From: Flagellimonas nanhaiensis
GTDB taxonomy: Bacteria > Bacteroidota > Bacteroidia > Flavobacteriales > Flavobacteriaceae
Direction of reading: 5' to 3'
DNA: 64,000 nt
Assembly: GCF_003382275.1 (NCBI RefSeq)
Contig: NZ_QTJX01000001.1
Span: 1,116,001 to 1,180,000 of the forward strand
Shown in pieces: positions 1 to 18,482 of the stretch (the first letter of the stretch is position 1; the number at the start of each line of letters is the position of its first letter). The notes below the pieces were generated by a model, which saw only the letters and a program-made list of their open reading frames with translations, made no database searches and was not told the origin of the DNA. The position numbers and the translations under genes are program-made.

Positions 1-1947
1 CAATTATTGATTCAGGCGAATGATGGTGGGGCCAATGTAAGTTTCAATGGTGGCAAAACCTGGTCTACACAGTTTAACCAACCTACAGCAGAACTGTATC
101 AGGTTGAAGTGGATGACCAATACCCATATTGGTTATATGCCGGTCAGCAAGACAATTATACTACCATTGCGGTACCCAGCTTTCCGCCCAGCGCAGTACA
201 AAATCTTGGTTCAGCTTGGATAATAAATACAGGCGGGTGTGAAACAGGTCCCGCGGTACCCAAACCAGGAAATCACAATATAGTCTATGCCAATTGTAAA
301 GGGCGTTTTGGAGTCTTTAATAAATTAACCGGGGTAGAAAAGAGCTATTATGTAGGTGCAACCAATATATACGGACACAATCCGAAGGATTTGAAATACC
401 GCTTTCAAAGGGTCGCTCCAGTACATGTTTCGCCACATAACCCCGATGTGGTGTACCATGGATCACAATTTCTACACAAAACCGATTCTGATGGATATTC
501 ATGGGAAACCATTTCTCCAGATTTGACCGCTTTTGAAGCGGACAAACAAGTAATTTCCGGAAGTCCGATAACACGAGATATTACAGGAGAGGAGTATTAC
601 AGCACCTTGTACTCCATTAGAGAATCCAGTATACAAGAAGGCCTCATTTGGACTGGGTCCAATGACGGCGTGGTTTCATTGACCAAAGATGGGGGCAAAA
701 CATGGCAGAATGTAACTCCGAAGAAATTACCAAAAGGAGGTAGGGTAGAGTCCATTGCACCATCAAAACATGATGTAGCCACAGCTTATATTGCTGTGGA
801 TAGGCATCTATTGGGTGATCCTCGACCATATTTCTATAAAACCAATGATTATGGTTCCACTTGGACTTTATTGAGTACGGAGTCCAACGGAATCCCTAAT
901 GATCATACTTCTCGAGTGTTGCGCGAAGACCCTGTAAAACCAGGTTTGCTGTATGCCGGAACTGAATATGGTATGTATGTTTCGTTCAATGATGGCAATA
1001 GCTGGCAGTCTTTTCAACAAAACCTTCCCGTGACACCGATCACCGATCTAAAAATCTTTAGGGGTGATTTAATCATAAGCACTATGGGGCGCGGTTTTTG
1101 GATTTTGGATAACATCACCGGTCTGCGTGATGAAGTGATGTCCAAGCTAGGAGAAAATCCACATCTTTTTAAACCAGATACCACTATTCGATATCGCTAC
1201 CCTAAGGTACGTTCAGGCAATACCTTTCCTAAATATCCCAGAACAGCGGTTTATATTGATTATTATTTGCCTGAATCTGCAAAAGATTTGAAACTGGAAA
1301 TTTTTGATGCCAAGAAAGCATTGGTTGCTACGGTTTTAAGTGATAGCACACAGCTGAAATCTTCAGTAAGTGAAGAGGAGGACATGAACTTGAGTTCCAC
1401 CTTTCGTTATGTCAACAAAAAATTGGAAGCTAAGAAAGGCCTAAATCGGTTTGAATGGAATCTGCTTGGAAAAGGAGCATGGCACAAAGAGAAGAAAAAG
1501 CGTTACAAAAACGGACCTATGCTACCTCCAGGAAGCTATACAGCAAAACTTACAGTAGGAGACAAAAGTATGAGCCAGGACTTTGAAGTATTGCTGGACC
1601 CTAGGGTAAAAGAGAGTGGTATGACCGCCTCATCACTTGATGAACAATATGATATGCAGCAAAAGGTCATTATGCTTTTGACCGAGGCCCGGTTATTGCA
1701 AGATAGCTTGGAAAAAGAATCCAAAGAATTGGAGACTAAAACCAATAGTGAGAGATTGGAAGATATAAAAACAGTATTAAAACAGCTTAAGAATGAAGAA
1801 GGAGCCTATCCACAGCAAATGTTGATAGCACAAATCTCATATCTCTATAATATGGTGAATGGTGCTGATCAAACCATTGGCAAAGATGTAATGGAACGTT
1901 ATGAAGAATTGAAAGCGGTTTTAGTTGAGATTAAAAACAAGCTCTAG
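1..1947 (+). CDS. VPS10/BNR-repeat (sortilin-like) exported protein, 5'-truncated by window edge
   Basis: The reading frame is open to base 1 (codons Q-L-L precede the first candidate start), so only the C-terminal ~648 residues are visible. Asp-box motifs (S/T-x-D/N-x-G-x-T/S-W) recur: FNGGKTW, KDGGKTW, NDYGSTW and FNDGNSW, as expected for a beta-propeller of the VPS10/BNR type. After residue ~400 comes a beta-rich region, followed by a C-terminal helical, charged segment. The same architecture appears in the full-length 1084-aa protein at 54532-57786, so roughly 430 N-terminal residues, including the export signal, are missing here. These proteins are common in Bacteroidota and are often annotated as glycosyl hydrolases, but no catalytic residue can be assigned. 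Function unknown; propeller-type exported protein with high confidence. Confidence 0.85.
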   Translation, partial: QLLIQANDGGANVSFNGGKTWSTQFNQPTAELYQVEVDDQYPYWLYAGQQDNYTTIAVPSFPPSAVQNLGSAWIINTGGCETGPAVPKPGNHNIVYANCKGRFGVFNKLTGVEKSYYVGATNIYGHNPKDLKYRFQRVAPVHVSPHNPDVVYHGSQFLHKTDSDGYSWETISPDLTAFEADKQVISGSPITRDITGEEYYSTLYSIRESSIQEGLIWTGSNDGVVSLTKDGGKTWQNVTPKKLPKGGRVESIAPSKHDVATAYIAVDRHLLGDPRPYFYKTNDYGSTWTLLSTESNGIPNDHTSRVLREDPVKPGLLYAGTEYGMYVSFNDGNSWQSFQQNLPVTPITDLKIFRGDLIISTMGRGFWILDNITGLRDEVMSKLGENPHLFKPDTTIRYRYPKVRSGNTFPKYPRTAVYIDYYLPESAKDLKLEIFDAKKALVATVLSDSTQLKSSVSEEEDMNLSSTFRYVNKKLEAKKGLNRFEWNLLGKGAWHKEKKKRYKNGPMLPPGSYTAKLTVGDKSMSQDFEVLLDPRVKESGMTASSLDEQYDMQQKVIMLLTEARLLQDSLEKESKELETKTNSERLEDIKTVLKQLKNEEGAYPQQMLIAQISYLYNMVNGADQTIGKDVMERYEELKAVLVEIKNKL

Positions 1948-2028
1948 TAAAATATATCTTGTTGTAGCTCACGTAATCTGCTGATGTTGAATGTATTTCG
2001 ACTTGCAATCCCATACTTTATTTTAATA

Positions 2029-2056
2029 ATCAACGTTACATTAATGTAACGTTGAT
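2029..2056. promoter_or_regulatory. 28-bp perfect palindrome upstream of the cytochrome c-dehydrogenase gene
   Basis: The stretch reads identically on both strands over all 28 bases, with arm ATCAACGTTACATT and centre TTAA. It begins 82 bp after the stop of the VPS10 gene and ends 90 bp before the likely ATG of the next gene (2147). There is no loop and no T-run on either side, which argues against a classical terminator and fits a dimeric repressor or activator site better. It could also act as a cruciform. Confidence 0.5.
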
Positions 2057-2146
2057 GCACAAAGTGTTATGGCCCCAATCACCTCAAATCAGTTTTCTGA
2101 AATAACTTTCCAATTAAAGTATGTCTTCAAATGGTTAAAAACAACA

Positions 2147-3574
2147 ATGAAATTGGTATTGCTGTTGTTTTTGTCAATCGTGTTAAGCTGTAACAATTCG
2201 GAGAATCCCGAGGTACCCGAAGAGGATCCTGACAATGAAATTGTTGATTTAGGAGATGCAGCCCTCAATTATAGAAACCACTGTGGAGGTTGCCATGGCC
2301 AAGACCTGGGTTCATTTGTGGAACGCGATTGGACCTACGGTGATTCTATGGAAGATATTATAAATTCTATAACGGATGGGTATGCAGGCAATGGTATGCC
2401 GGCATATGGGTCTGCATTGGGCGAGCAGGCCATTGAAGATTTGACCAACTACATACTTACCGAAATCGATGGGAAAACCAAAGCAATGTTGGAGGAGGAG
2501 AACCCAGATTTATCAGGTTTGATCTCATCCGATGACCTTACTTTCCGATTGGAAACCATAACCGATGAGATTCCCGGCATTCCCTGGGGGATAGAACAAT
2601 TGCCTACAGGCGAAATTTTGGTTACCGAGCGTGGGGGAGGGTTGTTCTTGGTAAATAACAATAAGGAACTTACAGAAGTTTCTGGTGTCCCAGCTGTTGC
2701 TTCACAAGGGCAGGGAGGATTGTTGGACGTACTGATACATCCAGATTTTGAAAACAATGCATTAGTGTATCTATCTTATTCCCGTATCAATCCCGACAAT
2801 GGATCCGAGCGGACAACAGCGGTGGCAAGAGGTAGGCTTGAAGGTAACAATCTGGTTGATGTGGAGAACATATTTACGGCACTTCCGTATCTCAACAGTT
2901 CTCACCATTATGGTTCAAGATTGGTATTTGATAACAATGGTTATCTATATGTTTCCGTAGGTGATCGTGGGAATAGGGATGCTTACCCCCAGGATTTAGG
3001 CAATGCCCATGGAAAAATACACCGTATCCATGACGATGGTCAAATTCCTACCGATAATCCCTTTTATAACACCGCCGGAGCCGTCAATTCCATTTTTACC
3101 TACGGAACACGCAATCCTCAGGGCATGACCTTACATCCTGAAACCGGAGCGCTATGGGAAGGCGAGCATGGACCCCAAGGAGGGGATGAAATCAATATTT
3201 TGGAAGCAGGGGATAACAATGGTTGGCCGGTTATTTCCTACGGAATCAATTATGATGGCACTACCTTTACAGATCTTACGGAGTTGGATGGCATGGAACA
3301 GCCCGTTTATTACTGGACCCCTTCCATTGCTCCATGCGGAATGACATTTGTATCAAGCGACTTTTATGGAAATTGGAAAAATGACCTGTTCGTCAGCTCA
3401 CTCAAATTCGAATACCTCCATCGTCTAAAGATGAATGGTAACACAGTTATAAGTCATGAAGAGCTGTTGGAGGGTATCGGCAGGGTACGTGACGCCCAAA
3501 TGGGATTGGACGGTTACCTCTATATTGCAGTAGAAGGTCCTGGTAGACTTATCCGCCTGGTACCTGAGCAATAG
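2147..3574 (+). CDS. Lipoprotein: cytochrome c domain fused to PQQ-type glucose/sorbosone dehydrogenase domain
   Basis: I start at 2147 because it gives a clean lipoprotein signal (MKLVLLLFLSIVLSC); the longer frame from 2069 would bury it. A single haem c site CGGCH lies at residues 46-50 with an M-P-A-Y axial-ligand region about 45 residues later, typical of a c-type cytochrome domain (~35-115). From ~125 to the end is a six-bladed propeller of the glucose/sorbosone dehydrogenase family (GxPWGIE at the start, then GxLYVSVGDRG and RNPQGMTLHPETG). Family members are soluble aldose dehydrogenases using PQQ. The fusion suggests electrons pass directly from the propeller to the attached cytochrome at the cell surface or in the periplasm. 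The sugar substrate cannot be read. It is monocistronic, behind the palindrome at 2029-2056. Confidence 0.9.
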   Translation: MKLVLLLFLSIVLSCNNSENPEVPEEDPDNEIVDLGDAALNYRNHCGGCHGQDLGSFVERDWTYGDSMEDIINSITDGYAGNGMPAYGSALGEQAIEDLTNYILTEIDGKTKAMLEEENPDLSGLISSDDLTFRLETITDEIPGIPWGIEQLPTGEILVTERGGGLFLVNNNKELTEVSGVPAVASQGQGGLLDVLIHPDFENNALVYLSYSRINPDNGSERTTAVARGRLEGNNLVDVENIFTALPYLNSSHHYGSRLVFDNNGYLYVSVGDRGNRDAYPQDLGNAHGKIHRIHDDGQIPTDNPFYNTAGAVNSIFTYGTRNPQGMTLHPETGALWEGEHGPQGGDEINILEAGDNNGWPVISYGINYDGTTFTDLTELDGMEQPVYYWTPSIAPCGMTFVSSDFYGNWKNDLFVSSLKFEYLHRLKMNGNTVISHEELLEGIGRVRDAQMGLDGYLYIAVEGPGRLIRLVPEQ

Positions 3575-6315: not shown

Positions 6316-6831
6316 AAAGAGAAACACAAAATGATCCAGAAAATGGAGAAAATTGGAATCTTATTTCAAACAGAAGCTTTTTAAGGGAAATCAGAGCAAA
6401 CCATTAAATTTTTCTTATTTTTTTGTTCCGGTAAATTCTCTTTGTCAAATTATAGATTGGAAATTGATGTTACTTGTACATTTTAAAATGTTAGACTGTA
6501 CTTTTTGAAATGTCATTTGCAGGATTCATAACAATGCGCTCTTGGTTCATAAATAAGGCTTTCAATTGAAAACCTCCTCTTTACTTACCGGTAAATCGTG
6601 TACTATAAAACGTGCAACGTTATACAACTTGAGTTTTGATACGGCAGGATGAAAAAGGTCTTGTGGCCTTTTGAGGTAGGAGCCAGCTGTAGCGTTGGTA
6701 AATTTTGAACCGAACTTCCTGAAAATTTCTTCTGAAAACTCTCTTCAAAAAAGGCAATGGAACACTTTTTACACGACCCCAAGGTAGGAGGGGAGGGTAA
6801 TGTGTATGGAATGACGCTTTAGAATCAGTAT
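6316..6831. other. Intergenic region with an interspersed repeat copy
   Basis: This 516-bp gap has no convincing gene. Its right half holds repeat copy A (6618-6813), described separately. The left half is AT-rich, with short T-runs after fabD (around 6400-6425) but no clear stem. Confidence 0.5.
6618..6813. repeat. Interspersed intergenic repeat, copy A
   Basis: This is homologous to 10860-11001. Both copies open with CGTTAT..AACTTGAG and end with the same ~95-bp core (6718-6813 here). The core includes an identical 26-bp run around GGAACACTTTTTACACGACC, followed by GGTAGGAGGGGAGGGTAATG and TGGAATG. Copy A carries ~50 extra bases between the opening and the core. No coding capacity, terminal inverted repeats or target-site duplications were recognised. 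Confidence 0.7.
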
Positions 6832-8703: not shown

Positions 8704-10689
8704 ATGAAAAGCATAACCAAAGGGTTACTAGTACTACTTCTTATTACAACAAACAATGTGTTTACACAGAAAAATAGTGTAAACGAAACGGCAGGATCTT
8801 CTTTAGAATTACCCCAAATTCGGGTGGTCCCTATAAAAGACACAAAAACAGAACGGAACTATGAACTTTATATAGAGTTGCCAGAAGATTATGCCGAGAA
8901 CCCTGATAAAAAGTATCCTGTCCTTTATTATACCGATGCCGTGTGGCATCTAGAAATGCTGTCTGGTGCTACAGAATACCTGTTGGAAGATATTATTCTA
9001 GTTGGAATTTCCTGGCAATTGGATATCAATGAAGATTTGAAAAACGAAAGGGGAGCGCATGTGAGCAGGTTTCGTGATTACTCGATGAGCGAACATAGCA
9101 ATCCTGAAATTCAAGAAAAATACCAATTGGGCCAAGCCAATAATCATCTCGATTTTATCCGCAATGAGGTCATTACATATGTGGACAAAACGTATCGCAC
9201 GGACCCAAACAGTCGCACTTATTTTGGATACTCACTAGGTGGTGAATTTGGCGCCTATATACTAATGAGTCAGCCTGATACCTTTAACAACTACATCATT
9301 GGTAGTCCAACGGTTAAAGATGAATTGGAATACTTAAAGGAACTAAACACCAAGATTGGACCTTACGAGTCTTCAAATAGAAACTCGAGCCTAAATGCCA
9401 ATGTTTTTATTGCGTATGGCTCATTAGAGGACGAATCGGTGACTGAACCCATCGACGAGTTTGTTAAATTGTTGAATGATAGAAGAGATGGCGGTTTGTC
9501 CGTATTAAAAGAAGTGATGAATGGCAGCCATAGTGGGGCATTCCCTATGACAGCGGTTCGCAGTGTTTCTTGGTTGTCATCTGCATTGAATCCTATTGCA
9601 AGTGATGACAACGACATCTCATTCTGGTCCATTCCGCTCTTAAACAACCCCTATATTAATCAAGCTCCAGAGGATAGAAAAGATGGCCTTTCTGTTGGAA
9701 AATTATCGGTAGGCAACAAAGACCAAAACACCATTCTAGAAGTATCCCAAGAGATTTTTGAGGGCAAATATGGTAATTACGATGCATTACTTATTTCACA
9801 TAAGAACAAATTGGTATATGAATCCTATTACAAAAAGGGGCGTATTAATTTGCCACACGGACAAGCCTCAGCCGTAAAGGGGTATACCAGTTTGGTGTTG
9901 GGTAGGGCCATTGAAATGGGATATTTAAGTATGGACGATCTCGACAAGCCTTTGATCCATTTCTTGAAAGACCTCGACCTTACAAAATTCACACCAGGAG
10001 CTGATAAAATCACACTGCACAAAGCGTTGACCATGCAAGGGGGATTGACCATAGACAGAGAAAAATGGAAAGAAATTGAAAATGATTCCATTCGCTTGAA
10101 AGGGCAGGGGTTGGTTCAAACCTTACTTGAACACTCTGAACCTATTACTGATGAAACTCAAAGCTATTTGTACGGAAATTTTAACCCCATGTTGGTCATG
10201 ACGGTAATCGATGCAGTGGTGCCAGGATCAGCTGAGGCCTTTATTAAAAAGGAGTTACTTGACCCCCTTGGCATTACCGATTATGAATGGTCAAAACACG
10301 TAAGTGGATTACCGCAAGCAGGGTGGCAGGCCAGAATCACATCTCGCGATATGCTCAAATTTGGACATTTGGTGCAAAACAGGGGCAAACTTAATGGAGA
10401 GCAGTTTATTTCTGAAGCCTATCTGGAAAAAGCTACCAGTGGTATAGTAAGGCCGGCAATAGATTGGATGCCCAAAAATTATCTCTATGGCTATTTTTGG
10501 TACTATACCCCAGTACAGGTTGGAAACAAAACCTATGATATGACCTTGGCTTGGGGTGGTGGTGGACAACGTGTGATAGTTGTAGAAGAACTTGATTTAA
10601 CTATTGTGATATCAGGTTATGACCGGGATGATGACAAAATCATGAAACCCATTTTTGAAACGGTTGTACCAGCATTTGCCAAAAACTAA
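8704..10689 (+). CDS. Exported esterase / beta-lactamase-type serine hydrolase fusion
   Basis: After a signal peptide (~1-22) come two hydrolase domains. The N-terminal ~280 residues are an esterase-D/enterochelin-esterase-like alpha/beta hydrolase: YPVLYYTDAVW, nucleophile Ser177 in GYSLGGEFG, His in NGSHSGAFP. The C-terminal half (~330-660) is a class C beta-lactamase/penicillin-binding-like domain: Ser389-Ala-Val-Lys392 as the SxxK motif, Y-G-N in YLYGNFN as the YxN motif, and WGGGGQR near the third motif. Both active sites look intact. Each domain alone is common; the fusion suggests two-step removal of ester and amide or ester groups from one extracellular substrate. A terminator hairpin follows. 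It is divergent from the LytS/LytTR pair. Confidence 0.85.
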   Translation: MKSITKGLLVLLLITTNNVFTQKNSVNETAGSSLELPQIRVVPIKDTKTERNYELYIELPEDYAENPDKKYPVLYYTDAVWHLEMLSGATEYLLEDIILVGISWQLDINEDLKNERGAHVSRFRDYSMSEHSNPEIQEKYQLGQANNHLDFIRNEVITYVDKTYRTDPNSRTYFGYSLGGEFGAYILMSQPDTFNNYIIGSPTVKDELEYLKELNTKIGPYESSNRNSSLNANVFIAYGSLEDESVTEPIDEFVKLLNDRRDGGLSVLKEVMNGSHSGAFPMTAVRSVSWLSSALNPIASDDNDISFWSIPLLNNPYINQAPEDRKDGLSVGKLSVGNKDQNTILEVSQEIFEGKYGNYDALLISHKNKLVYESYYKKGRINLPHGQASAVKGYTSLVLGRAIEMGYLSMDDLDKPLIHFLKDLDLTKFTPGADKITLHKALTMQGGLTIDREKWKEIENDSIRLKGQGLVQTLLEHSEPITDETQSYLYGNFNPMLVMTVIDAVVPGSAEAFIKKELLDPLGITDYEWSKHVSGLPQAGWQARITSRDMLKFGHLVQNRGKLNGEQFISEAYLEKATSGIVRPAIDWMPKNYLYGYFWYYTPVQVGNKTYDMTLAWGGGGQRVIVVEELDLTIVISGYDRDDDKIMKPIFETVVPAFAKN

Positions 10690-10729
10690 ATTGATTTTAC
10701 AGGACATAAAGCATAGAAAGATTTTAACG

Positions 10730-10750
10730 ACCCCAGACTTGTTCTGGGGT
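10730..10750 (+). terminator. Rho-independent terminator after the esterase/lactamase gene
   Basis: ACCCCAGA pairs perfectly with TCTGGGGT around a 5-base loop, followed by TGATTTTT. It lies 41 bp after the stop codon at 10689. Confidence 0.8.
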
Positions 10751-10810
10751 TGATTTTTATCATTTGTACATAATGTAAGGAATCTCAAATAAGAAACGAC
10801 TTTCAAAGCA

Positions 10811-10835
10811 ATTTTACATAATGGCTAATTATGGA
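10811..10835. repeat. Left island-flank repeat (25 bp)
   Basis: Starts ATTTTACATAATGGC and matches 17196-17220 at 22 of 25 positions. In both places an AATGTTTCAT 10-mer follows downstream (10841-10850 and 17259-17268). The two copies bracket the AT-rich island. Confidence 0.5.
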
Positions 10836-10859
10836 ATATTAATGTTTCATAATGTACAG

Positions 10860-11001
10860 CGTTATGTAACTTGAGCTTTGGTAAAAGCGAAAGTTTACCG
10901 AGAATCTCCTGAAAAATTTCTTCTAAGAGCTTCTTTAAAAAAGCAATGGAACACTTTTTACACGACCCGAGGTAGGAGGGGAGGGTAATGTGTGTGGAAT
11001 G
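10860..11001. repeat. Interspersed intergenic repeat, copy B
   Basis: Second copy of the repeat at 6618-6813, here in its compact form (142 bp). The core 10908-11001 matches 6718-6813 almost throughout. It ends ~30 bp before the structured leader of the 100-aa gene. Confidence 0.7.
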
Positions 11002-11029
11002 GGATATAATAAACATTTGTATCTTTACT

Positions 11030-11162
11030 ACGTCTACACGGTTTTAGGAAAATTCTAAAACAATTATTTATCGATAAGGAGTCGCTCACAAGTCCAGCGG
11101 CCACGAAAGTACCGCTTCCAGTCCTAGACTGTGTAGACAGGGCTGACGGGGTGACTCCGCAT
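11030..11162 (+). ncRNA. Highly structured leader or small RNA before the 100-aa gene
   Basis: Several perfect complementary segments nest here. GTCTACAC (11032-11039) pairs with GTGTAGAC (11131-11138). GTTTTAG (11041-11047) pairs with CTAAAAC (11055-11061). GGAGTC (11078-11083) pairs with GACTCC (11153-11158). CAGTC (11119-11123) pairs with GACTG (11127-11131), and GCGG (11097-11100) with CCGC (11112-11115). Some pairings exclude each other, as in a switching leader. Local G+C is clearly higher than in neighbouring bases. The 100-aa reading frame starts 15 bp later. I do not recognise a known riboswitch; a mobile-element remnant is an alternative. Confidence 0.45.
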
Positions 11163-11176
11163 TTAAAATTTTCTTT

Positions 11177-11479
11177 ATGTCTACAAGAAAAAACCAAATC
11201 CATGATGAATGGTATCAACAATTACAAAAGGAACTTAACGTAGAAGACTTAAAACAAAAGGAAGCAATTCTAGAAATTATTGCCATAATTGATGACTACT
11301 TCGATGTAAATTCTCTGGAAGGCCACGTAGATGGTTTGCAAGGAATGCTATCTGGCAGTATCGAAAACAAAGTATTGGGCTTATCTAAAAAGCACATTTT
11401 CGATTGTGTGTCTCAAACAGTTGTTCATGTCAATTTTTTATTGAAATTATCTTCTAGACTTTCTGTACTCAAAGCTTAA
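11177..11479 (+). CDS. Hypothetical 100-aa protein behind a structured leader
   Basis: I do not recognise a family. The protein is small and probably soluble, with no signal peptide. Residues ~5-45 are strongly helical and charged (KNQIHDEWYQQLQKELNVED, then AILEIIAIIDDYF), and the C-terminal third is amphipathic. It sits alone on the plus strand, convergent with the RT operon. The candidate DRT ncRNA ends only ~20 bp past its stop codon on the other strand. It could be an accessory of the defence system, an antitoxin-like protein or a remnant; nothing in the sequence decides. Confidence 0.5.
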   Translation: MSTRKNQIHDEWYQQLQKELNVEDLKQKEAILEIIAIIDDYFDVNSLEGHVDGLQGMLSGSIENKVLGLSKKHIFDCVSQTVVHVNFLLKLSSRLSVLKA

Positions 11480-11500
11480 TATATCTGAGTGTGTTGAATC

Positions 11501-11530
11501 AAAAAAAGGCAGGGACTCAACCCCTGCCTT
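11501..11530 (-). terminator. Rho-independent terminator ending the RT/ncRNA unit
   Basis: On the minus strand AAGGCAGGG pairs with CCCTGCCTT across a 7-base loop (9-bp stem), ending in seven T. It lies ~110 bp after the stop of the 752-aa RT and would define the 3' end of the candidate ncRNA. Confidence 0.85.
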
Positions 11531-11638
11531 CAAAACCTTATAAAAAAGTTTAAGGCGCTTGTGTGTGCTAATTCCTCAATTAGTAAATAACGGTTTTAGA
11601 GCAATCAAATAATCAAATTTGATATTGCGCCATATATT
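11501..11638 (-). ncRNA. Candidate DRT3-type template ncRNA with exposed CACACACA
   Basis: Read on the minus strand directly after the RT stop codon, the ~138-nt stretch has these parts in order. First is GGCGC near the start, complementary to GCGCC at 11558-11554. Next is a hairpin CTAATT-gagg-AATTAG (11583-11568). Then comes an unpaired CACACACA at 11567-11560. A hairpin CCTTA...TAAGG follows (11555-11536 on the plus numbering), and last the terminator. The alternating CA run is therefore held between two stems, with the GGCGC/GCGCC pairing able to close the loop. As I recall from recent work on DRT3, one of its two RTs copies a conserved ACACAC in the ncRNA into poly(GT). The match of two RTs plus this RNA is the basis for the call. 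The 5' end is a guess; the 3' end is well defined. Confidence 0.65.
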
Positions 11639-13897
11639 TTAATATACGTTATGCCCTCTTTTGGTATTAAGCTCTCTACCCAAGTCAGAACCTTCCCATT
11701 TTGCATACCAGTTAGCTTGAAATGAGCTCAATTCATTGACAATTAACTCTTTTTCTGGCTCCGAAAGGGTTGACTCAAAAAATTTAATCGATTCCAAAAC
11801 CTCTTTTCGGAACTCAATTGTATCCCTGTCTGAACTACCTATAAAAGGACAAGTAAGAACGTCGATTAAAAGCAAAGTATCCTCAGCTTTTCTTGATTCA
11901 AAACTATTAAATTTCTTTTTTATGTTCTCTTTTAAAATATTTCTTAGACCATCATATTTAGTCTTTTTTTGAATGTGATGTAATAATGAGACTATTAAGA
12001 AATATGACATTCCACCCTCAATCTCTTTTTTAAAATGATTCAGTAAAGTCTTTTCCGATAACTCGTAATTTTCTCCTAATTCATTTAAAACTGCCAGGAG
12101 ATAAAGGGTTTCAATTTCGGAATGGACAGTTGAGCGATTTTTATTTAGAACAATATTTATTCCATCATAAATACTTTTGTATATGGTATGTTTATTATCA
12201 AAGCTGAAAGCAATAATGATTTCATCCAATATGAAGGAATATTCGGTTTTCTGCAATAGGCCAATTCTTGTTTTCTCTTGATTTTTGACAAAATCAATAA
12301 TTCTGAATATGATATGGCAAACTTTAATTGAATAACTGACTCTTGGTAAAACTGAATAGACAAAAAAGGTTATTTCAATAATTTCAAGGAATTTTTTTAA
12401 AAGCTGTCTATGATACTTTTCAATTATTTTTTTTAGAGGTTCTTTTTTTTCTGTTAACGTACCAATCTCTTCACGAATTCTATTTTTTTCCTCATCTGTA
12501 TTTTCTGGATTGTCCAAGCTTTGTCTCAGCTCTTTTTCTTTGATTAAATAATTAATCAACTTTCTTTCTTCTGACTGAAACTTTCTAATTAGTTGTTTGG
12601 TTTTGTTGAAAATTGTTGCTAAAAAATAGTTTTGAAGGTCTTTATACGACGTATTAGTAGAAGCCAAGATTTTTTTGTAATTGGTAATTACATCTCTAGA
12701 TTCGTAGTACTTGATTCCGGTTCTCGGTATATCATCCGCGTCAAGAAATTTGAAAATGACAGTGTTTTCTATTAATTCCCTAATATTCTCTTTTGCAATG
12801 GTTATATTGGTTATGATTGGTTTTTCAATCTCTTCGGTCTTCGACTCATTAAAAAACAAATTGAACTCCTTCAATTCAAGTTTAAACAACTCAAGTATTT
12901 CATCCTTAACTCTGTCTTCATTATAGAATACAAAATAGTCATCAACATAGCGATATATATCGTATTCGACTTTATAGGTGTATTGCAGTTGCTTTTCTAT
13001 TAATTCATCGATTTTTTGTAAAATTAATTCCGCAAAAATTCTAGAAAATTCAGGCCCTATTAAAATACCGTTTGTTTCATTGTAATTCATTAATTGCATT
13101 AGCTTATCGAATACACCACCAACAGTATTTTTGTTTGGGGAAAGATTGTCTTTGACAATTTTTTTATTTGTCAATGCCCAAGACAATGAATGGGTATAAA
13201 TACTGTCAAAACATCTAGAAATATCGAATTTTAAGAGCTTGTTAAATCTCTTTTCAGCCCTATGATATTCATTTGATTCGTAAAACTTATATATGTTGCT
13301 GTAAGTCTGATATGAGAAAAATGTTTTAAGTCCTTTGTACTCTTTATCACTAGTTTCTATTATTTCAATTTCTGGATTCTTGATTCTGTTTTTTGAAAAG
13401 GTAGGGTCTCTGAAATATTTCAAAGAAGCGACTTTATCAGGTTTTCTAAGAGAGTATTTACTTCTATTTGAATAATATAAAATGTCATTTTTGTACTTAT
13501 CGTAAAAAGACACCAACATCAATTGATTAATAGGGTGTATTACTGCTAGTTCCCTATAATCATGGTTTTTATGAGAAATCCTGAACTTGTAGGGAATTTT
13601 TTGAAGTTCTTCTATTCTTAATTTGTAATACCTATATTTTTTTTCGTCATTATACTTTACAACTTTTTGAAACCCGAGACCAAATACAATTTTTACAATT
13701 CTCTCAAGCGTTTTAGATGAATTTTTTTGGAATCTTAGTTCTATTCCATTGTTGACATTTGCCAACTCAACTTTGTGTTTGGTCAAAAAATCATAGAAAT
13801 GTCTATTCGAAAAAAATGGTGGCACCTCATATGGAAGAACATCAGATATTACCACTCTTTCTTTTTTGTATCCGATATGTTGTCTGGACTTTTTCAC
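11639..13897 (-). CDS. Second reverse transcriptase of a DRT3-like defence pair (752 aa)
   Basis: The start is GTG at 13897, 3 bp after the stop of the first RT, so the two are translationally coupled. RT motifs are clear: motif A KFDISRCFDSIY (Asp225), motif B GILIGPEFSRIFAELIL (~277-293) and motif C YRYVDDYFVFYN (Y317-V-D-D320). Both catalytic Asp of the YVDD box are intact. The N-terminal ~200 residues and the C-terminal ~420 residues match no domain I know; ~440-510 is a charged coiled coil and the rest is helical. No maturase, HNH, protease or nitrilase domain is visible, which excludes group II introns and several other DRT types. It pairs with the 512-aa RT as in DRT3 (UG3 + UG8); by gene order this would be the Drt3b/UG8 partner, but the assignment is inference. 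It is more AT-rich than the flanks. Confidence 0.85.
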   Translation of the reverse strand: MKKSRQHIGYKKERVVISDVLPYEVPPFFSNRHFYDFLTKHKVELANVNNGIELRFQKNSSKTLERIVKIVFGLGFQKVVKYNDEKKYRYYKLRIEELQKIPYKFRISHKNHDYRELAVIHPINQLMLVSFYDKYKNDILYYSNRSKYSLRKPDKVASLKYFRDPTFSKNRIKNPEIEIIETSDKEYKGLKTFFSYQTYSNIYKFYESNEYHRAEKRFNKLLKFDISRCFDSIYTHSLSWALTNKKIVKDNLSPNKNTVGGVFDKLMQLMNYNETNGILIGPEFSRIFAELILQKIDELIEKQLQYTYKVEYDIYRYVDDYFVFYNEDRVKDEILELFKLELKEFNLFFNESKTEEIEKPIITNITIAKENIRELIENTVIFKFLDADDIPRTGIKYYESRDVITNYKKILASTNTSYKDLQNYFLATIFNKTKQLIRKFQSEERKLINYLIKEKELRQSLDNPENTDEEKNRIREEIGTLTEKKEPLKKIIEKYHRQLLKKFLEIIEITFFVYSVLPRVSYSIKVCHIIFRIIDFVKNQEKTRIGLLQKTEYSFILDEIIIAFSFDNKHTIYKSIYDGINIVLNKNRSTVHSEIETLYLLAVLNELGENYELSEKTLLNHFKKEIEGGMSYFLIVSLLHHIQKKTKYDGLRNILKENIKKKFNSFESRKAEDTLLLIDVLTCPFIGSSDRDTIEFRKEVLESIKFFESTLSEPEKELIVNELSSFQANWYAKWEGSDLGRELNTKRGHNVY

Positions 13898-13900
13898 AGC

Positions 13901-15439
13901 TCAATGTTTTTTCCAAACTGAATTAATCTCTTTCAAACCAAATCTTATTATGCCTCTATTTGTTTTATTGGTTTCATCAGTTCTTTTTGCATTATGATTT
14001 TTGTAAACCTCTTTTTTTAATGGGTATCTGATGAAGCGTTTAGAGTCAAAGCCTTCTTTAAAATTTAACTTCTTTAGTTCGTTTTTTTGGTCAAGTAGTA
14101 AACCCGCTCTGTATATATGCCAATAAAAATATTTATCTAGAATATCAAAGGAGGATGGATTATTAACAAATGGATTAGAGTAATATATACCTATCAATAC
14201 ATTGGCCTTATTATTTCTTAATTTGGTATTAGTACACAAAAATTGAATTCGCGTTTTCAATAGTTTAAACGCACGACGTTCATTTTTTAATCGTTTATTT
14301 TTGAAATCATCAAAAGCACTTTTTATCTTTTCCTTGTATTTCAAAATTTTCTTTTCGGACAGGTCTACGGACAATTCTATTGTAGTTCTTTCTCTCTTTG
14401 TCGGATCCGAAAATTTGTATAAGTTTTTTACAGACCCTATACTGCATCCTAAATAGTTGATTGATTTGGGATTCGCCTTAATCGTTTTGGCTATAATTCT
14501 GTCATCAAGAAGTTCAAAGCTCCTAAGATTTAGCATATCGATGCCCTTTGTTAAATTGTAGCTGTGTGTTTTCTCGATATTTACATCTAGATGCCTGTTT
14601 TTAATGACTTGTAGTAGTTTAGTTTTATATTTTCCTAGCTGCAAATTTGAGATTGCTTTGTCCGCTGGAACAAAAACTGCGATGATATCATCAACATATC
14701 TAGAATAATAAACTAAATCATCAAGCAATCTGATTTCATTGTCAATAATACGCATGTAAAGCTCCGATAAATAAGGGCTTATGCCAACACCCCTAGGAAC
14801 ACCTTTTGGGTTAGAAGCTCCAACTTGACCAGTTAATCTATTATACTCTTCAATAACTTTATTAATGAATTTTTTTGAAAGCACACTGAGCAAATGGTCA
14901 TCATTTATCTTTGAAAGGAGAGGTTTTTGCGGTATGGTTTCGTAAAAGGATTTTATGTCAGTTCTTACAACATATTTTGGAAATTTATCCTCTAAGGTAT
15001 TTATCAGTTGACTTACAATAGCATATCTGTTTGCTTGTTTTACCTTGTATGTTCTAGCTAAATTCCATTGAACCTTTTTGGACATAAAATAGTTTTCTAG
15101 ATTTTTTTCCAATATAAAGGTGGGTTTTCCGAGTCTAGGGCCATGGTTCATTTGAATATTATTAATCTTCACCGGTAAATCTCTAGTTGACTCGTCCAGA
15201 ATTTTCTTAATTAGGGCATCACGGTCACTTCTTAGTGTTTTTCTTTCCTGATAAAGTAGCTTTTTATGTTCGGAATCAGTAGAATTTCTAATTTCCAATG
15301 TTTTTGCTTGAATCAATTTCAATTGTTCCAGACTATCGGAAAATTCCTCTTTGAAAAGTTTTTCAATGTTCTTTCCTTTTCGATTTTCTCTGTCAAAAAT
15401 TTCTTGGAATGTCTCCTTTGTGAAGGATTGATTTAACAT
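13901..15439 (-). CDS. First reverse transcriptase of a DRT3-like defence pair (512 aa)
   Basis: The ATG at 15439 is preferred over the TTG one codon upstream. Residues ~20-85 are a charged helical N-terminal region. RT motifs follow: motif A RTDIKSFYETI (Asp161), motif B GVPRGVGISPYLSELYMRIID (~213-232) and motif C YSRYVDDIIAVF (Y248-V-D-D251). Catalytic residues are intact. The C-terminal ~200 residues have no recognised domain and include a basic stretch suited to RNA binding. It is not a retron RT by context (no msr/msd) and lacks intron maturase parts. It is first in a two-RT operon with the 752-aa protein and the downstream candidate ncRNA, so DRT3 is the best fit; by order this would be Drt3a/UG3, an inference. 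A TATATTTT box at 15465-15472 (minus) could be its -7 element. Confidence 0.87.
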   Translation of the reverse strand: MLNQSFTKETFQEIFDRENRKGKNIEKLFKEEFSDSLEQLKLIQAKTLEIRNSTDSEHKKLLYQERKTLRSDRDALIKKILDESTRDLPVKINNIQMNHGPRLGKPTFILEKNLENYFMSKKVQWNLARTYKVKQANRYAIVSQLINTLEDKFPKYVVRTDIKSFYETIPQKPLLSKINDDHLLSVLSKKFINKVIEEYNRLTGQVGASNPKGVPRGVGISPYLSELYMRIIDNEIRLLDDLVYYSRYVDDIIAVFVPADKAISNLQLGKYKTKLLQVIKNRHLDVNIEKTHSYNLTKGIDMLNLRSFELLDDRIIAKTIKANPKSINYLGCSIGSVKNLYKFSDPTKRERTTIELSVDLSEKKILKYKEKIKSAFDDFKNKRLKNERRAFKLLKTRIQFLCTNTKLRNNKANVLIGIYYSNPFVNNPSSFDILDKYFYWHIYRAGLLLDQKNELKKLNFKEGFDSKRFIRYPLKKEVYKNHNAKRTDETNKTNRGIIRFGLKEINSVWKKH

Positions 15440-15570
15440 CAATTACATACTTTGGTTAGCCAATAAAATATAAGTAAATTATTACAGGGTTTAAGATACT
15501 TCTGTATTTAGAATTAATGAAGCGATGGCTAGAAGAAAATGCGGGCGAGTAGGGGAGTGAATTTGTGGCT

Positions 15571-15603
15571 AACACAAAGAGCGATTGCCCTCGGCTTTGT
15601 GTT
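15571..15603. repeat. 9-bp inverted repeat upstream of the RT operon
   Basis: AACACAAAG (15571-15579) is perfectly complementary to CTTTGTGTT (15595-15603) with a 15-base loop. It belongs to a hairpin-rich stretch between the RT operon and the 49-aa gene. Confidence 0.6.
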
Positions 15604-15620
15604 GGAGCATGAAATGCCCA

Positions 15621-15635
15621 CATAGCGAAGCTATG
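15621..15635. repeat. CATAGC-GAA-GCTATG hairpin
   Basis: Perfect 6-bp stem with a 3-base loop, the second of three stems in the 15.57-15.70 kb stretch. A CACAAAG..AGCGA motif occurs on both sides of it (15573 and 15641), as if a small unit had been duplicated. Confidence 0.55.
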
Positions 15636-15667
15636 AAGACACAAAGGGAGCGAGGAAGCATATTTTC

Positions 15668-15699
15668 TTCTTGATTTTTTGTTTCTTTTTTATCAAGAA
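15668..15699. terminator. Long-loop T-rich hairpin (possible terminator or dispersed repeat)
   Basis: TTCTTGAT (15668-15675) pairs with ATCAAGAA (15692-15699) around a T-rich 16-base loop. It lies 11 bp after the stop of the 49-aa minus-strand gene at 15710, where it could end that transcript. The loop is too long for a classical terminator, and such CTTGAT...ATCAAG elements are, to my recollection, a dispersed intergenic feature of Bacteroidota. Confidence 0.4.
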
Positions 15700-15709
15700 A
15701 AAAGAATGA

Positions 15710-15859
15710 CTAACCATCAGTATTTTCCTTGCAAGCGGTACCTAGATTATCCCATCGACCATCTCTACATTGATGTAAAGTCCCACCTTGACATACCGTA
15801 GAGCCATCAGAGTACTCCTTGCCATTGTAAATACATGTTGAATTTTTGTTGTCCGACAT
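15710..15859 (-). CDS. 49-aa cysteine-containing mini-protein
   Basis: This short frame reads MSDNKNSTCIYNGKEYSDGS, continues with V-C-Q-G-G-T-L, then C-R-D-G-R-W, and closes near the C-terminus with T-A-C-K. The four cysteines, with Tyr-Asn-Gly, Tyr-Ser-x-Gly and Gly-x-Trp spacing, look like a compact beta-hairpin fold resembling the DUF1496 type. There is no signal peptide. It is the last of three small minus-strand genes (16854 to 15710) lying upstream of the RT operon, separated from it by ~270 bp of hairpins. Function unknown; the patterned cysteines and glycines make a chance frame unlikely. Confidence 0.65.
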   Translation of the reverse strand: MSDNKNSTCIYNGKEYSDGSTVCQGGTLHQCRDGRWDNLGTACKENTDG

Positions 15860-15891
15860 AATTTATATTTTTTAATCTAATAAAGGTAAAA

Positions 15892-16218
15892 TCACCTATG
15901 GTCTGCATCACCCAACAGAGACCAAATCCAACGATTATTGTGAAATATATACGCTTCCAGCCATTGATTAGGCCTTACATTAGCTTTATCATTTGGTCTT
16001 ACATTATAAATTGAAAATGGCACAAAAAGCTTTGAAGTGTGATGTCTGATTTTGGCGGCGTTATTAAATGTTACAATCCATATTGAATTGGATTTGTCTA
16101 CTGAATATGTAAAAGTGTTTATGCTATTCGAGGTAATGTCTTCACCTTTTTCCTCACTTAAATAATCAGCATTATCATCCTCATAACCCTCCATACTAGG
16201 GAAATCGTAAACTTTCAT
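15892..16218 (-). CDS. Hypothetical 108-aa acidic protein
   Basis: I do not recognise it. The first ~30 residues are acidic (SMEGYEDDNADYLSEEKGED); the rest looks beta-rich with aromatics (NSIWIVTFNNAAKI, QWLEAYIFHNNRWIWSLLG). It has no signal peptide. Both neighbours are on the same strand, with 32 bp to the 49-aa gene downstream, so an operon is likely. It has the AT-rich composition of the island. Confidence 0.6.
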   Translation of the reverse strand: MKVYDFPSMEGYEDDNADYLSEEKGEDITSNSINTFTYSVDKSNSIWIVTFNNAAKIRHHTSKLFVPFSIYNVRPNDKANVRPNQWLEAYIFHNNRWIWSLLGDADHR

Positions 16219-16344
16219 ATTTATAGATTTATTATTGGGGGAGGAATTAAACTATGACTATAAATATAAGGATAATTACTACAAAAATGAAAGAAAAATA
16301 TGTGTATCTAATAATATATTTTGGAGAAACTCTGCTGACAAATC

Positions 16345-16854
16345 TCAACGACAGACAAAAAAGCAACCTTTTGTAGAAAGATTTACATCATCTATCAAAT
16401 CGTAAAAATTGGGTTCAATATTGCCAGTTAATTTGATTTCACCTGAACCACAGTTAACGATATAGGCATTTGCATCGCTCTCTGTTATTTTTCTTCCTTT
16501 ACTATTAAAAAATACAAGACCTATTATGAAATAAGGCTTACTATGCCTCGCGCCAAATGAATATGCTGTAGCTGTATAAGGTATTGTTGCACTAAAATTA
16601 CCATCTGGAAAAACATATAAATCAATCATGCCATAGTTTAACTGGTCTTGGTATTTATCTCCGGTGAACTCATTCCATTTAAAGTACTTTAAATCATCTT
16701 TAAATTCTTTAAAATTGGAAGAATAATCAATAACTTTCTGTGAGCATTTCAATTTAGACAAGGGTATTTTTGTCTTTTTTACAGTTCGGATTTGAGATAT
16801 TCCTTTTGAAGAGACAAAGAAGAAGATTATTAATAAAAAAGTGCTAAATCTCAT
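16345..16854 (-). CDS. Hypothetical exported 169-aa protein
   Basis: The N-terminal ~20 residues (MRFSTFLLIIFFFVSSKGIS) are a signal peptide. The mature part is beta-rich with two cysteines near the end (GCFFVC) and others at ~37 and ~143, possibly disulfide bonded. No family was recognised. It is the first of the small minus-strand genes in the right part of the island; 126 bp separate it from the 108-aa gene. Confidence 0.6.
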   Translation of the reverse strand: MRFSTFLLIIFFFVSSKGISQIRTVKKTKIPLSKLKCSQKVIDYSSNFKEFKDDLKYFKWNEFTGDKYQDQLNYGMIDLYVFPDGNFSATIPYTATAYSFGARHSKPYFIIGLVFFNSKGRKITESDANAYIVNCGSGEIKLTGNIEPNFYDLIDDVNLSTKGCFFVCR

Positions 16855-17195
16855 ATCTATAAGCTTTATTAAAATGGTTTTTCAGATTAAATATGAGGGA
16901 TACTTAAATAAAGGAATTCTTACTTTAAGAAACAAATTTATTTACAGATAAACAAATGAGGATGTGAGCAAGTGCTAAGAATTTTGCTCAAAGAGAAAAT
17001 TTTAGCTTTTGCGACATGCTAACGAACAGTCCGTGAAATTTTTCTTCTTCAAATTTTCCAGTAAACCAAAGGTTTTAATAGAAACGAAAAGCTGAGCTTT
17101 TAATGGCACTGGCCAAGTGGCTGAGAATTGCGTATAAAAATAAATGCAAGGGCATTTACTTTTTATGAAAGCAATATGCTGTTGGCCGAGCGGCT

Positions 17196-17220
17196 ATTTT
17201 ACATAACGGCAAATTATAGA
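17196..17220. repeat. Right island-flank repeat (25 bp)
   Basis: Starts ATTTTACATAACGGC and matches 10811-10835 at 22 of 25 positions in the same orientation, with the same downstream AATGTTTCAT 10-mer. Confidence 0.5.
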
Positions 17221-17311
17221 TACAAATGAAAAGATGCGGCGTTAGCCGACCGCTAGGGAATGTTTCATGACCCTGTTCATAGTTCCCATAAATGACGAAA
17301 GGTTGAGGGAT

Positions 17312-17334
17312 ATTTTACATAATAGAATTATAGC
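17312..17334. repeat. Third, degenerate copy of the flank repeat
   Basis: ATTTTACATAA is identical and AATTATAG is retained, but the GGC centre is lost. Confidence 0.35.
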
Positions 17335-17465
17335 TTACAAATGGATAAACAGCTGAGAAACCAAAACAATACATTTGTACTATAATTTGTATTATGTCAA
17401 ATAGAATATTTATAACCTGGAAAACCCCACGATAAACTTCTCCTCCATATTTTTATGTTATATAT

Positions 17466-18482
17466 CTACTTGCATTGAGTTTGTGCCAAGTTCACATGCT
17501 CTTTGCGATAAGCTTGTGGCGTTACATTGGTTTGTTCCTTAAATGCTTTGTATAAAGACGATGTACTGCTAAAACCAACTTCCTTGGCTATGACTTCAAT
17601 CTTATCGTTGGCCTCCAAGTCTTGCAGTCTGTTCTTAACCTCTATAACTCGATATGAATTCACAAATGAATTGAACTTAACACCTCGGTGTTCCTTAATG
17701 GCTTGTGAAATCAAATATATTGGATGTTGCAGTTCTTGGGATAGATTCGTCAAGGTCAACCCTTTTCTGCGGTAAACCTTTTCTTTATCAAATAATACAG
17801 TGATCTTTTCATAAATACTGTCCAACACTTCGGACTGTTCCTTTTTTGGTTTCCTGTTGATTTGCAACAACTTACGGTCCTTCAAAAGCATAAAATTGAT
17901 TACATACAGGATAACCAAGGTCAGGATATTCCCGATGGTATATCCCTGAATGTTAGCTAGATAAGACTGAAAAACAAAAATCAAAGCTATAGCCCCTACA
18001 CTACTTCCGAAGAGGATAAACCGCTTTCGGTTGCCGTTCCAATCTCCATATTTAAAGAATATAAAACTGGTCACTGCGTACGAAAACACAAGTAACGCTC
18101 CTATTTTGTACAACGAAATCACCTTCCAGCTGGAATCGGAAAAAAAGCTGCTTATCACCAATAATATTGCAGGCAGATAATGAAAATAATCTGCCTTCCG
18201 GAGTTTACTGGGTTTGCTGGACAAGGTATACAGCCAAAACGAAGGCCCTATGGCCCAAAGCCCCGCCAAAGCTAACATCACGGTCCAAAAAGGCACTTCC
18301 GAAAATAGATAGTAATAGTACGACTTTGATATCCGTAGCGTCAATGCCAAAAGCATCAAACTTAAAAAAACAATCGGCGTAAACTTCTTGGTATTCTTTG
18401 CCAAAATATAAAAGCTAAGAAATAGACCTTGACAAATGGCTATTCCGCAGACAACGGCAATAATGATTCTCCAGATATCCAT
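17466..18482 (-). CDS. Membrane-anchored AraC-family transcriptional regulator
   Basis: The protein has about seven hydrophobic segments over residues ~1-215 and a C-terminal AraC DNA-binding domain (~235-335) ending in VGFSSTSSLYKAFKEQTNVTPQAYRKEH, the typical second helix-turn-helix. This architecture is frequent in Flavobacteriia. It is divergent from the iorAB-like genes across a 181-bp region, so it probably controls them. The membrane part may sense a hydrophobic ligand; which one cannot be read. Confidence 0.9.
   Translation of the reverse strand: MDIWRIIIAVVCGIAICQGLFLSFYILAKNTKKFTPIVFLSLMLLALTLRISKSYYYYLFSEVPFWTVMLALAGLWAIGPSFWLYTLSSKPSKLRKADYFHYLPAILLVISSFFSDSSWKVISLYKIGALLVFSYAVTSFIFFKYGDWNGNRKRFILFGSSVGAIALIFVFQSYLANIQGYTIGNILTLVILYVINFMLLKDRKLLQINRKPKKEQSEVLDSIYEKITVLFDKEKVYRRKGLTLTNLSQELQHPIYLISQAIKEHRGVKFNSFVNSYRVIEVKNRLQDLEANDKIEVIAKEVGFSSTSSLYKAFKEQTNVTPQAYRKEHVNLAQTQCK

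Follow-up and report, generated by a model that had tools for sequence, protein, structure and literature searches.

The closest described counterparts of the locus reported here are DRT3 antiphage systems. In EcoDRT3 of E. coli, two reverse transcriptases (RTs), Drt3a and Drt3b, are encoded with a noncoding RNA (ncRNA) that lies downstream of drt3b and carries an ACACAC template, and E22, R71 and R241 (the nucleotide gate) and the priming residue Y666 have been tied to protein-templated poly(dCdA) synthesis by EcoDRT3b (Wang et al. 2026, PMC13174585; chain 26cz_A). The published RNA model began from EcoDRT3 and its close kin (PMC13174585). A DRT3 complex solved by Deng et al. 2026 (chains 9z6y_A and 9z6y_H) is cited in PMC13314766 and PMC13213688 as a 6:6:6 assembly. 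The locus described here lies in a 64,000-nucleotide stretch of the flavobacterium Flagellimonas nanhaiensis (GCF_003382275.1, contig NZ_QTJX01000001.1, positions 1,116,001 to 1,180,000 of the forward strand), hereafter the window, and is an ordinary member of the known DRT3 system, complete in each part examined; very probably it is a complete and functional anti-phage operon in the order drt3a-drt3b-ncRNA. Like EcoDRT3 it has both RTs, an ncRNA (here predicted) downstream of drt3b, the AC-repeat template, the gate, the priming Tyr and YVDD. DRT10 (UG17) also has RNA-templated synthesis of tandem repeats from a template directly downstream of a stem-loop but, as described in PMC12632851, it consists of one RT and a SLATT protein with a variable template and no second RT. 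In the DRT2 ncRNA, distant stem-loops are joined by a five-pair pseudoknot, but the RT family and the product are different ones (PMC12596737).

The two genes are on the same strand, 3 bp apart (13898-13900), and their catalytic motifs are intact (YSRYVDDI in Drt3a, here also RT-1, and YRYVDDY in Drt3b, RT-2, where YVDD is residues 317-320); an alternative TTG start one codon upstream would give a Drt3a of 513 amino acids. The G+C content is 29-32% over 12-15 kb compared to 44% over 19-21 kb. A preliminary description of the window had noted two such adjacent minus-strand RTs of 512 and 752 amino acids in an AT-rich stretch, and the open reading frames (ORFs) and base composition agree with it. 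RT-1 matched the NCBIfam family NF041747 (Drt3a) with 403 bits against a cut-off of 200 over positions 1-412 of the 412 in the profile, and RT-2 matched NF041748 (Drt3b) with 729 bits against a cut-off of 350 over 1-647 of 647. Because these are full-length matches at about twice the cut-offs the DRT3 identity is right, and scores of this size over whole profiles exclude a chance match. Thus, the earlier assignment of the pair to UG3 and UG8, and so to DRT3, was borne out by profile hidden Markov models, whose best matches were Drt3a (UG3) and Drt3b (UG8), and PADLOC concurs with 346 bits for Drt3a on RT-1. In Pfam the sole family above the cut-off in both RTs was RVT_1, in line with the earlier view that neither carries a maturase, HNH, nitrilase or protease domain. 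Profiles of other RT families (group II, retron, CRISPR) scored far below Drt3a and Drt3b and were rejected. That the two genes are side-by-side RTs of such a family, or of DRT4, DRT6 or DRT10, has a negligible probability: there are weaker cross-matches, to group II intron RTs (TIGR04416, 62.5 and 37.2 bits, cut-off 300), Drt4 (112 bits, cut-off 450), Drt6 (153 bits) and, on RT-1, PADLOC RT_UG17 (73 bits; the DRT10 RT according to PMC12632851), but the full-profile Drt3a and Drt3b scores already refute this reading. No SLATT partner was matched among the five proteins scanned, which were the two RTs and three neighbouring ORFs.

Profiles of the window's proteins with their relatives matched most of both chains of the Deng et al. 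complex. The Drt3a profile (52 rows: the window and 51 of the 63 loci with an upstream frame, the omitted ones being short or cut frames or L082) gave 312 bits with 9z6y_A, and the 65-row Drt3b profile (the window and 64 of the 65 prepared loci; L082, a near-copy of L065, was omitted) gave 613 bits with 9z6y_H and 629.5 bits with 26cz_A, aligned up to the last Tyr. The solved chains of 426 and 650 residues are shorter than the window's 512 and 752, and EcoDRT3b is also shorter at 667 (published domain limits, PMC13174585). The preliminary description had left long terminal regions of RT-2 unassigned. Its C-terminal half can now be assigned, as it aligns with the solved Drt3b chains, in which this half is an alpha-Rep domain followed by a tail (PMC13174585), whereas residues 55-99, approximately, have no counterpart in 26cz_A. 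The segment at about 448-495 is longer than in most of 12 aligned relatives. From the alignment to 26cz_A and the 65 rows, E22, R71, R241 and Y666 of EcoDRT3b correspond to E24, R115, R286 and Y752 of the window's Drt3b; the chain offset of 108 was taken from the lengths (775 less 667), so that E130 is E22, R349 is R241 and Y774 is Y666. R115, R286, D225, D319 and D320 are conserved in all 65 rows and Y752 in 64, with a gap in the other one. The Asp pair of YVDD is therefore present in 65/65 Drt3b rows, and in Drt3a it is equally invariant (D250 and D251, 52/52 rows). Position 24 is Glu in 60 of the 65 rows and Asp in the remaining five (L129, L130, L132, L136 and L138), a natural form of the dATP-gate change E22D, which in EcoDRT3b retains partial synthesis (PMC13174585). 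L034, in the first alignment, likewise has Asp there, and all six of these loci retain the AC motif.

The predicted template CACACACA lies 71 nucleotides past the drt3b stop codon. To see how specific its place is, we counted ACACAC or CACACA around drt3b in 109 full-length loci, each with 300 nucleotides of sequence past drt3b and the window included; these are 116 loci minus seven with cut, broken or short frames (L105, L133, L134, L137, L139, L140 and L141). The loci were chosen by Drt3b similarity, one search having kept the top-scoring 80 of 542 relatives, so that they represent the most similar part of the family, and they include near-duplicates (L110/L121, L004/L113). L032, an E. coli plasmid locus (CP083496.1) whose drt3b annotation is split in two, was excluded from the counts throughout. 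Within 300 nucleotides downstream of drt3b the motif was on the sense strand in 109/109 loci and on the antisense strand in 2, whereas 11.3 were expected from shuffled downstream DNA. In the next 300 nucleotides it was found on the sense strand in one locus and on the antisense strand in two, and within drt3b in 8 (first 300 nucleotides) and 6 (last 300 nucleotides) of the 109. We regard 108 of the 109 templates as credible, since the only AC motif of the L006 locus (at 3508) is inside the next open frame, which begins at 3462, and L006 is itself a sub-threshold relative: its Bacteroidota gene pair (162-3384) is under both cut-offs with 180 and 300 bits, and may be a cousin of DRT3 that makes something else. 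ACACAC itself is common, with 12 copies in the window compared to 21 in shuffles, and it is the place and the strand that count; two other copies within 300 nucleotides downstream of the window's drt3b (11489-11494 and 11406-11411) are outside the conserved setting. Since the gate and priming residues are kept alongside the RNA template, both template parts point to the published (dTdG)/(dCdA) product.

The preliminary description had guessed at an RNA in 11501-11638, and a structured RNA that contains the template motif is predicted there, at 11505-11635, with inferred ends. Its minimum-energy fold has -36.1 kcal/mol and z = -3.93, and 0 of 200 shuffles were equally stable, whereas the longer stretch 11480-11638 gave z = -2.73. 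In this fold P1 encloses P2, P3 and the template, and P4 and then the terminator-like P5 follow downstream. The same order of P1, P2, template, P4 and P5 is seen in the two related systems of Muricauda sp. M10 (L039), the closest with a Drt3b 69% identical to the window's, and Ochrovirga pacifica (L040; 56%), both among the best 80 of 542 relatives. P3, however, is missing from the minimum-energy folds of both, and it is also not in the centroid of the window's own fold. In the window's clade one of the five P1 pairs varies and it does so compensatorily (GGCGC/GCGCC, GGTGC/GCACC, GGGGC/GCCCC). In the four-row alignment of this clade P1 was 100% paired, P5 96.4%, P3 and the candidate pseudoknot 79.2% each and P2 58.3%; further pair types numbered 12 compared to 12.3 in shuffles, which is not above chance. 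Terminator-like sites were found twice against a shuffle mean of 2.9, so that the P5 call is weak by itself. A search of Rfam over 10500-17500 at E <=1 gave no known RNA family, the single match being a chance one to SNORD59 (E 0.55, below the gathering score).

Further support for the RNA comes from a neighbouring clade, represented by an alignment (A3) of 36 relatives, none of them from the window's own clade. In A3, P1, P3 and P5 are backed by two-sided (compensatory) changes; P3 is paired in 91% of cells with two-sided changes at all 5 pairs, and a sixth P1 pair is unpaired in 16 of the 32 rows with letters. A hairpin directly 5' of the template is also favoured in the 88 rows outside the E. 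coli type, a grouping of our own (mean 10.65 compared to 8.8 shuffled), whereas in the 20 E. coli-type rows, L112 included, it is unsupported (9.18 compared to 9.07). A3 also supports a pseudoknot, whose six pairs join the strand 3' of P1 to the P5 loop. It is paired in 89.3% of cells, compared to 28-47% for slid versions of the pairing, and all 6 pairs have two-sided changes, with 49 such cells against 16.6 in shuffles (0/500). In 31 rows outside A3, aligned to a pseudoknot-free model and many of them close kin of A3 rows, 93.0% of cells were paired with 27 two-sided cells against 6.9 (0/500). The number of pairs with a two-sided change was reached by some shuffles, 25/500 for A3 and 84/500 for the 31 rows, and the shuffles ignore relatedness. 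When arms were swapped among 88 loci, cognate arms and loops had a pairing score of 15.5 compared to 13.27 (standard deviation 0.25, maximum 14.2, 2000 permutations), and in a stricter version 13.24 compared to 11.04 (standard deviation 0.24, maximum 12.07, 5000 permutations). Applied to A3 by itself, RNAalifold returned P3 and P5 and not P1 or the pseudoknot; the choice of these two was not blind, as they were named after reading the sequences and counted afterwards.

The window RNA probably has this pseudoknot as well. Its strands, GCUCUA and the P5 loop UUGAGU (11515-11520), form five of the six pairs, one of them G-U, and have one U-U mismatch, whereas ACUCUA/UAGAGU of L039 pairs perfectly by eye. 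In the arm and loop test the top pairing of the window was a different one (AUCAAA/UUUGAU) and 8 other loops were equal or better for its arm, and for L039 it was 43 other loops; the hairpin finder of this test chose another hairpin in several rows. Thus, because of the mismatch and because the 79.2% pairing in the window's clade is without two-sided changes, the pseudoknot is supported in the neighbouring clade and only likely in the window. A literature search, Deng et al. 2026 (the solved complex) aside, found no description of a pseudoknot for a DRT3 RNA, and the word does not occur in the accessible main text of PMC13174585 or PMC13314766. It could be argued that CACACACA and its hairpins are a mere 3' untranslated region with a terminator and not a templating RNA. 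P5 would make a plausible terminator, but a motif so specific for strand and place, and the covarying P1, P3, P5 and pseudoknot of the neighbouring clade, make this very unlikely.

How the system would work can be proposed from the E. coli studies, from which all of the biochemical steps and the defence itself are inferred. The preliminary description's poly(GT)/poly(AC) mechanism is indeed published (PMC13174585), and both the RNA template and the Drt3b residues that underlie it are conserved in the window. Drt3a would bind the downstream ncRNA, copy the CACACACA segment, halt at the P3 hairpin and slip back through the microhomology of the repeat, thereby making poly(dTdG); the analogy with DRT10 suggests that P3 may bound the template. 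Drt3b, with its C-terminal Y752 as primer, would make poly(dCdA) without a nucleic-acid template, with E24 admitting dATP and R286 admitting dCTP. The two strands would then anneal to a dinucleotide-repeat duplex, which a host exonuclease may restrain until a phage disturbs the host, whereupon the duplex would accumulate and growth would stop. In E. coli the loss of RecBCD makes DRT3 toxic (PMC13174585).

Several observations weigh against the view that the locus is a DRT3 operon working as the E. coli one does. Unlike the host of EcoDRT3, the genome of F. nanhaiensis has no match for recC and sub-threshold matches only for recB and recD, and therefore the E. coli guard by RecBCD cannot apply as published. 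The covariance model R1, built without the window, found the window RNA with a modest 22.5 bits (E 0.0046 in 493 kb; 24.7 bits unfiltered). It is also narrow, as at E <=1 it found 22 of 35 loci taken from the window's clade and its neighbour, L040 and L041 of the window's own clade being among those missed, and it matched none of the 19 E. coli-type loci. In these 19 (L006 and L112 set aside) the template is 101-261 nucleotides past the stop codon compared to 71 in the window. Finally, four more distant RT pairs from plasmid and phage searches, L158-L161, 26-29% identical to the window's Drt3b, have no sense-strand AC motif downstream. As for the guard, the host has on contig C8, at 562030-570459, a recB-like frame of 1047 amino acids with PDDEXK_1 and a frame of 918 amino acids with PDDEXK_1 within 10 kb, which looks like an AddAB helicase-nuclease pair. 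If the guard logic is shared with E. coli this pair would have to be the guard, and an AddAB-type nuclease may thus replace RecBCD in this host.

The distant pairs also bear on whether the window's RTs make a different DNA, be it a repeat of other dinucleotides or a random sequence. The E. coli systems studied so far are distant from the window's clade, whose RNA has a different layout, and L158-L161 raise the possibility that products differ across the family at large. On the other hand, the window's RNA template and protein gate fit the published (dTdG)/(dCdA), and the motif in 109/109 loci and the gate in 65/65 aligned rows make another product highly improbable for the window. In L158 (1051-4504, Pediococcus plasmid) and L161 (1551-5004, Lactiplantibacillus plasmid) the two RTs are head to head and the sole ACACAC is between the genes on the drt3a-like strand; the L158 pair is below the cut-offs, with 185 of 200 bits for the Drt3a-like and 285 of 350 for the Drt3b-like frame. 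These two may represent a diverged type of DRT3 from Bacillota in which the RNA is encoded between the RTs. In L159 (1326-4863, Erysipelothrix phage SE-1) and L160 (1460-5004, a phage clone of human faecal origin) both RT-like frames share a strand, identity to the window's Drt3b is a distant 29% and 26%, and AC motifs are on the opposite strand only.

In a tree of 109 rows made by a quick method, in which several deep forks are weak, the window is in a supported clade with Muricauda M10 (Drt3b 73% identical over the tree columns), Ochrovirga and Sphingobacterium faecium, separate from a large, mainly Bacteroidota and Pseudomonadota clade and from the E. coli-type rows. The distribution of DRT3 is patchy. 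Drt3b was over the cut-off in 5 of the 395 genomes of the phylum and in 7 of the 71 of the genus, the window's own included in both; 66 of the 395 matched at E 0.001, and those below the cut-off were not counted as DRT3. The other six loci of the genus all have an AC motif within 230 nucleotides, three of them (G466, G402 and G395) apparently being L039, L056 and L046, already among the 109. A single-protein scan of viral contigs gave no relative, and an alignment query made after it gave 23 loci.

The locus looks to be in a variable, defence-type hotspot. Intergenic repeats of about 150-460 bp flank it (Table 1), and in genomes of the same genus such repeats frame changing cargo that includes defence candidates (L152, L153 and L156). 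The five genomes whose sister hotspots were examined, G403, G409, G413, G414 and G417, have no Drt3b match. From three of six sister-genome stretches eight ORFs were chosen and scanned: a kinase and TPR pair matched PDC-M71A/B with 453 and 607 bits, a DUF2326 and ABC-3C/Mrr pair gave 163 bits with PDC-M68B and a weak 47 bits with PDC-S73, one ORF matched PDC-M36A (106 bits), one matched PDC-M43B in its kinase end only, and two had no match. An AT-rich island among changing cargo, and the mismatch in the window's pseudoknot strand, would also be seen if the operon were decayed or silent, its proteins looking intact while RNA or expression had failed and defence was lost. This is unlikely, since the two long open frames keep the key residues and the template and P1 are intact, and a functional DRT3 operon is the reading we prefer. 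Two small minus-strand ORFs upstream of drt3a (15892-16218 and 16345-16854) have no PADLOC, NCBIfam or Pfam match, and in L152 (G409) and L156 (G414) the two upstream repeats are about 75 bp apart without these intervening ORFs. Beside the downstream repeat a plus-strand ORF of 100 amino acids (11177-11479) has no family match above the cut-off; its counterpart by the same repeat in G409 (L152, 9655-9957) is 90% identical in DNA.

Table 1. Positions in the window of the DRT3 genes, the predicted RNA with its parts, and the flanking repeats
Feature	Positions	Strand	Remarks
drt3a (RT-1, UG3/Class 2; predicted RNA-templated RT)	13901-15439	minus	ATG start, 512 amino acids
drt3b (RT-2, UG8/Class 1; predicted protein-primed and protein-templated RT)	11639-13897	minus	GTG start, 752 amino acids
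Predicted DRT3 ncRNA	11505-11635	minus	Fold and covariance model; ends inferred
P1 5' strand, GGCGC	11627-11631	minus	Pairs with 11554-11558
P2 hairpin	11604-11623	minus	In minimum-energy folds of window, L039 and L040; absent from wider-clade structure
Candidate pseudoknot 5' strand, GCUCUA	11597-11602	minus	Positional homologue of covarying strand in neighbouring clade
P3 hairpin	11568-11583	minus	Directly 5' of template
Predicted template for poly(dTdG), CACACACA	11560-11567	minus	71 nucleotides past drt3b stop codon
P1 3' strand, GCGCC	11554-11558	minus	One base 3' of template
P4 hairpin	11533-11551	minus	In minimum-energy folds of window and L039
P5 hairpin, possible intrinsic terminator	11505-11531	minus	Terminator-like site; two-sided changes
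Repeat R-a of putative hotspot, downstream flank	10849-11002		Recurs in same-genus genomes; second window copy 6709-6813
Repeat R-b of putative hotspot, upstream flank	15524-15706		Up to 91% identical in same-genus genomes
Repeat R-c of putative hotspot, upstream flank	16958-17415		88-92% identical in G409, G403 and G414

We give even chances to a broader view, that there is a broad class of DRT3 apart from the studied E. coli type, the window included, with a compact pseudoknotted ncRNA. In such an RNA the strand next to P1 would pair with the loop of the terminator hairpin, and stacking of P1 and the pseudoknot on each other could keep the template up against the P3 boundary. In telomerase RNAs, too, the template is accompanied by a boundary stem-loop or a pseudoknot. 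This broader view is weakened by the 13 of 35 window-side loci that R1 misses and by L158-L161 without the motif. If it holds, the AC template and gate, unchanged in loci whose records are labelled with six phyla, suggest that the RNA and protein templates are tied to each other by the need for the two strands to pair. None of the sampled loci is clearly a variant for a different dinucleotide, as the gate is present in 65/65 rows and a credible RNA template in 108/109, and this lack of change points to a strong mutual constraint. L158-L161, which lack the downstream motif, are the natural places to seek a different product. The RNA fold of the clade neighbouring the window's, with its candidate pseudoknot, is a concrete target for study, and the class it belongs to is also relevant to the proposal that telomerase originated in bacteria (PMC12632851).

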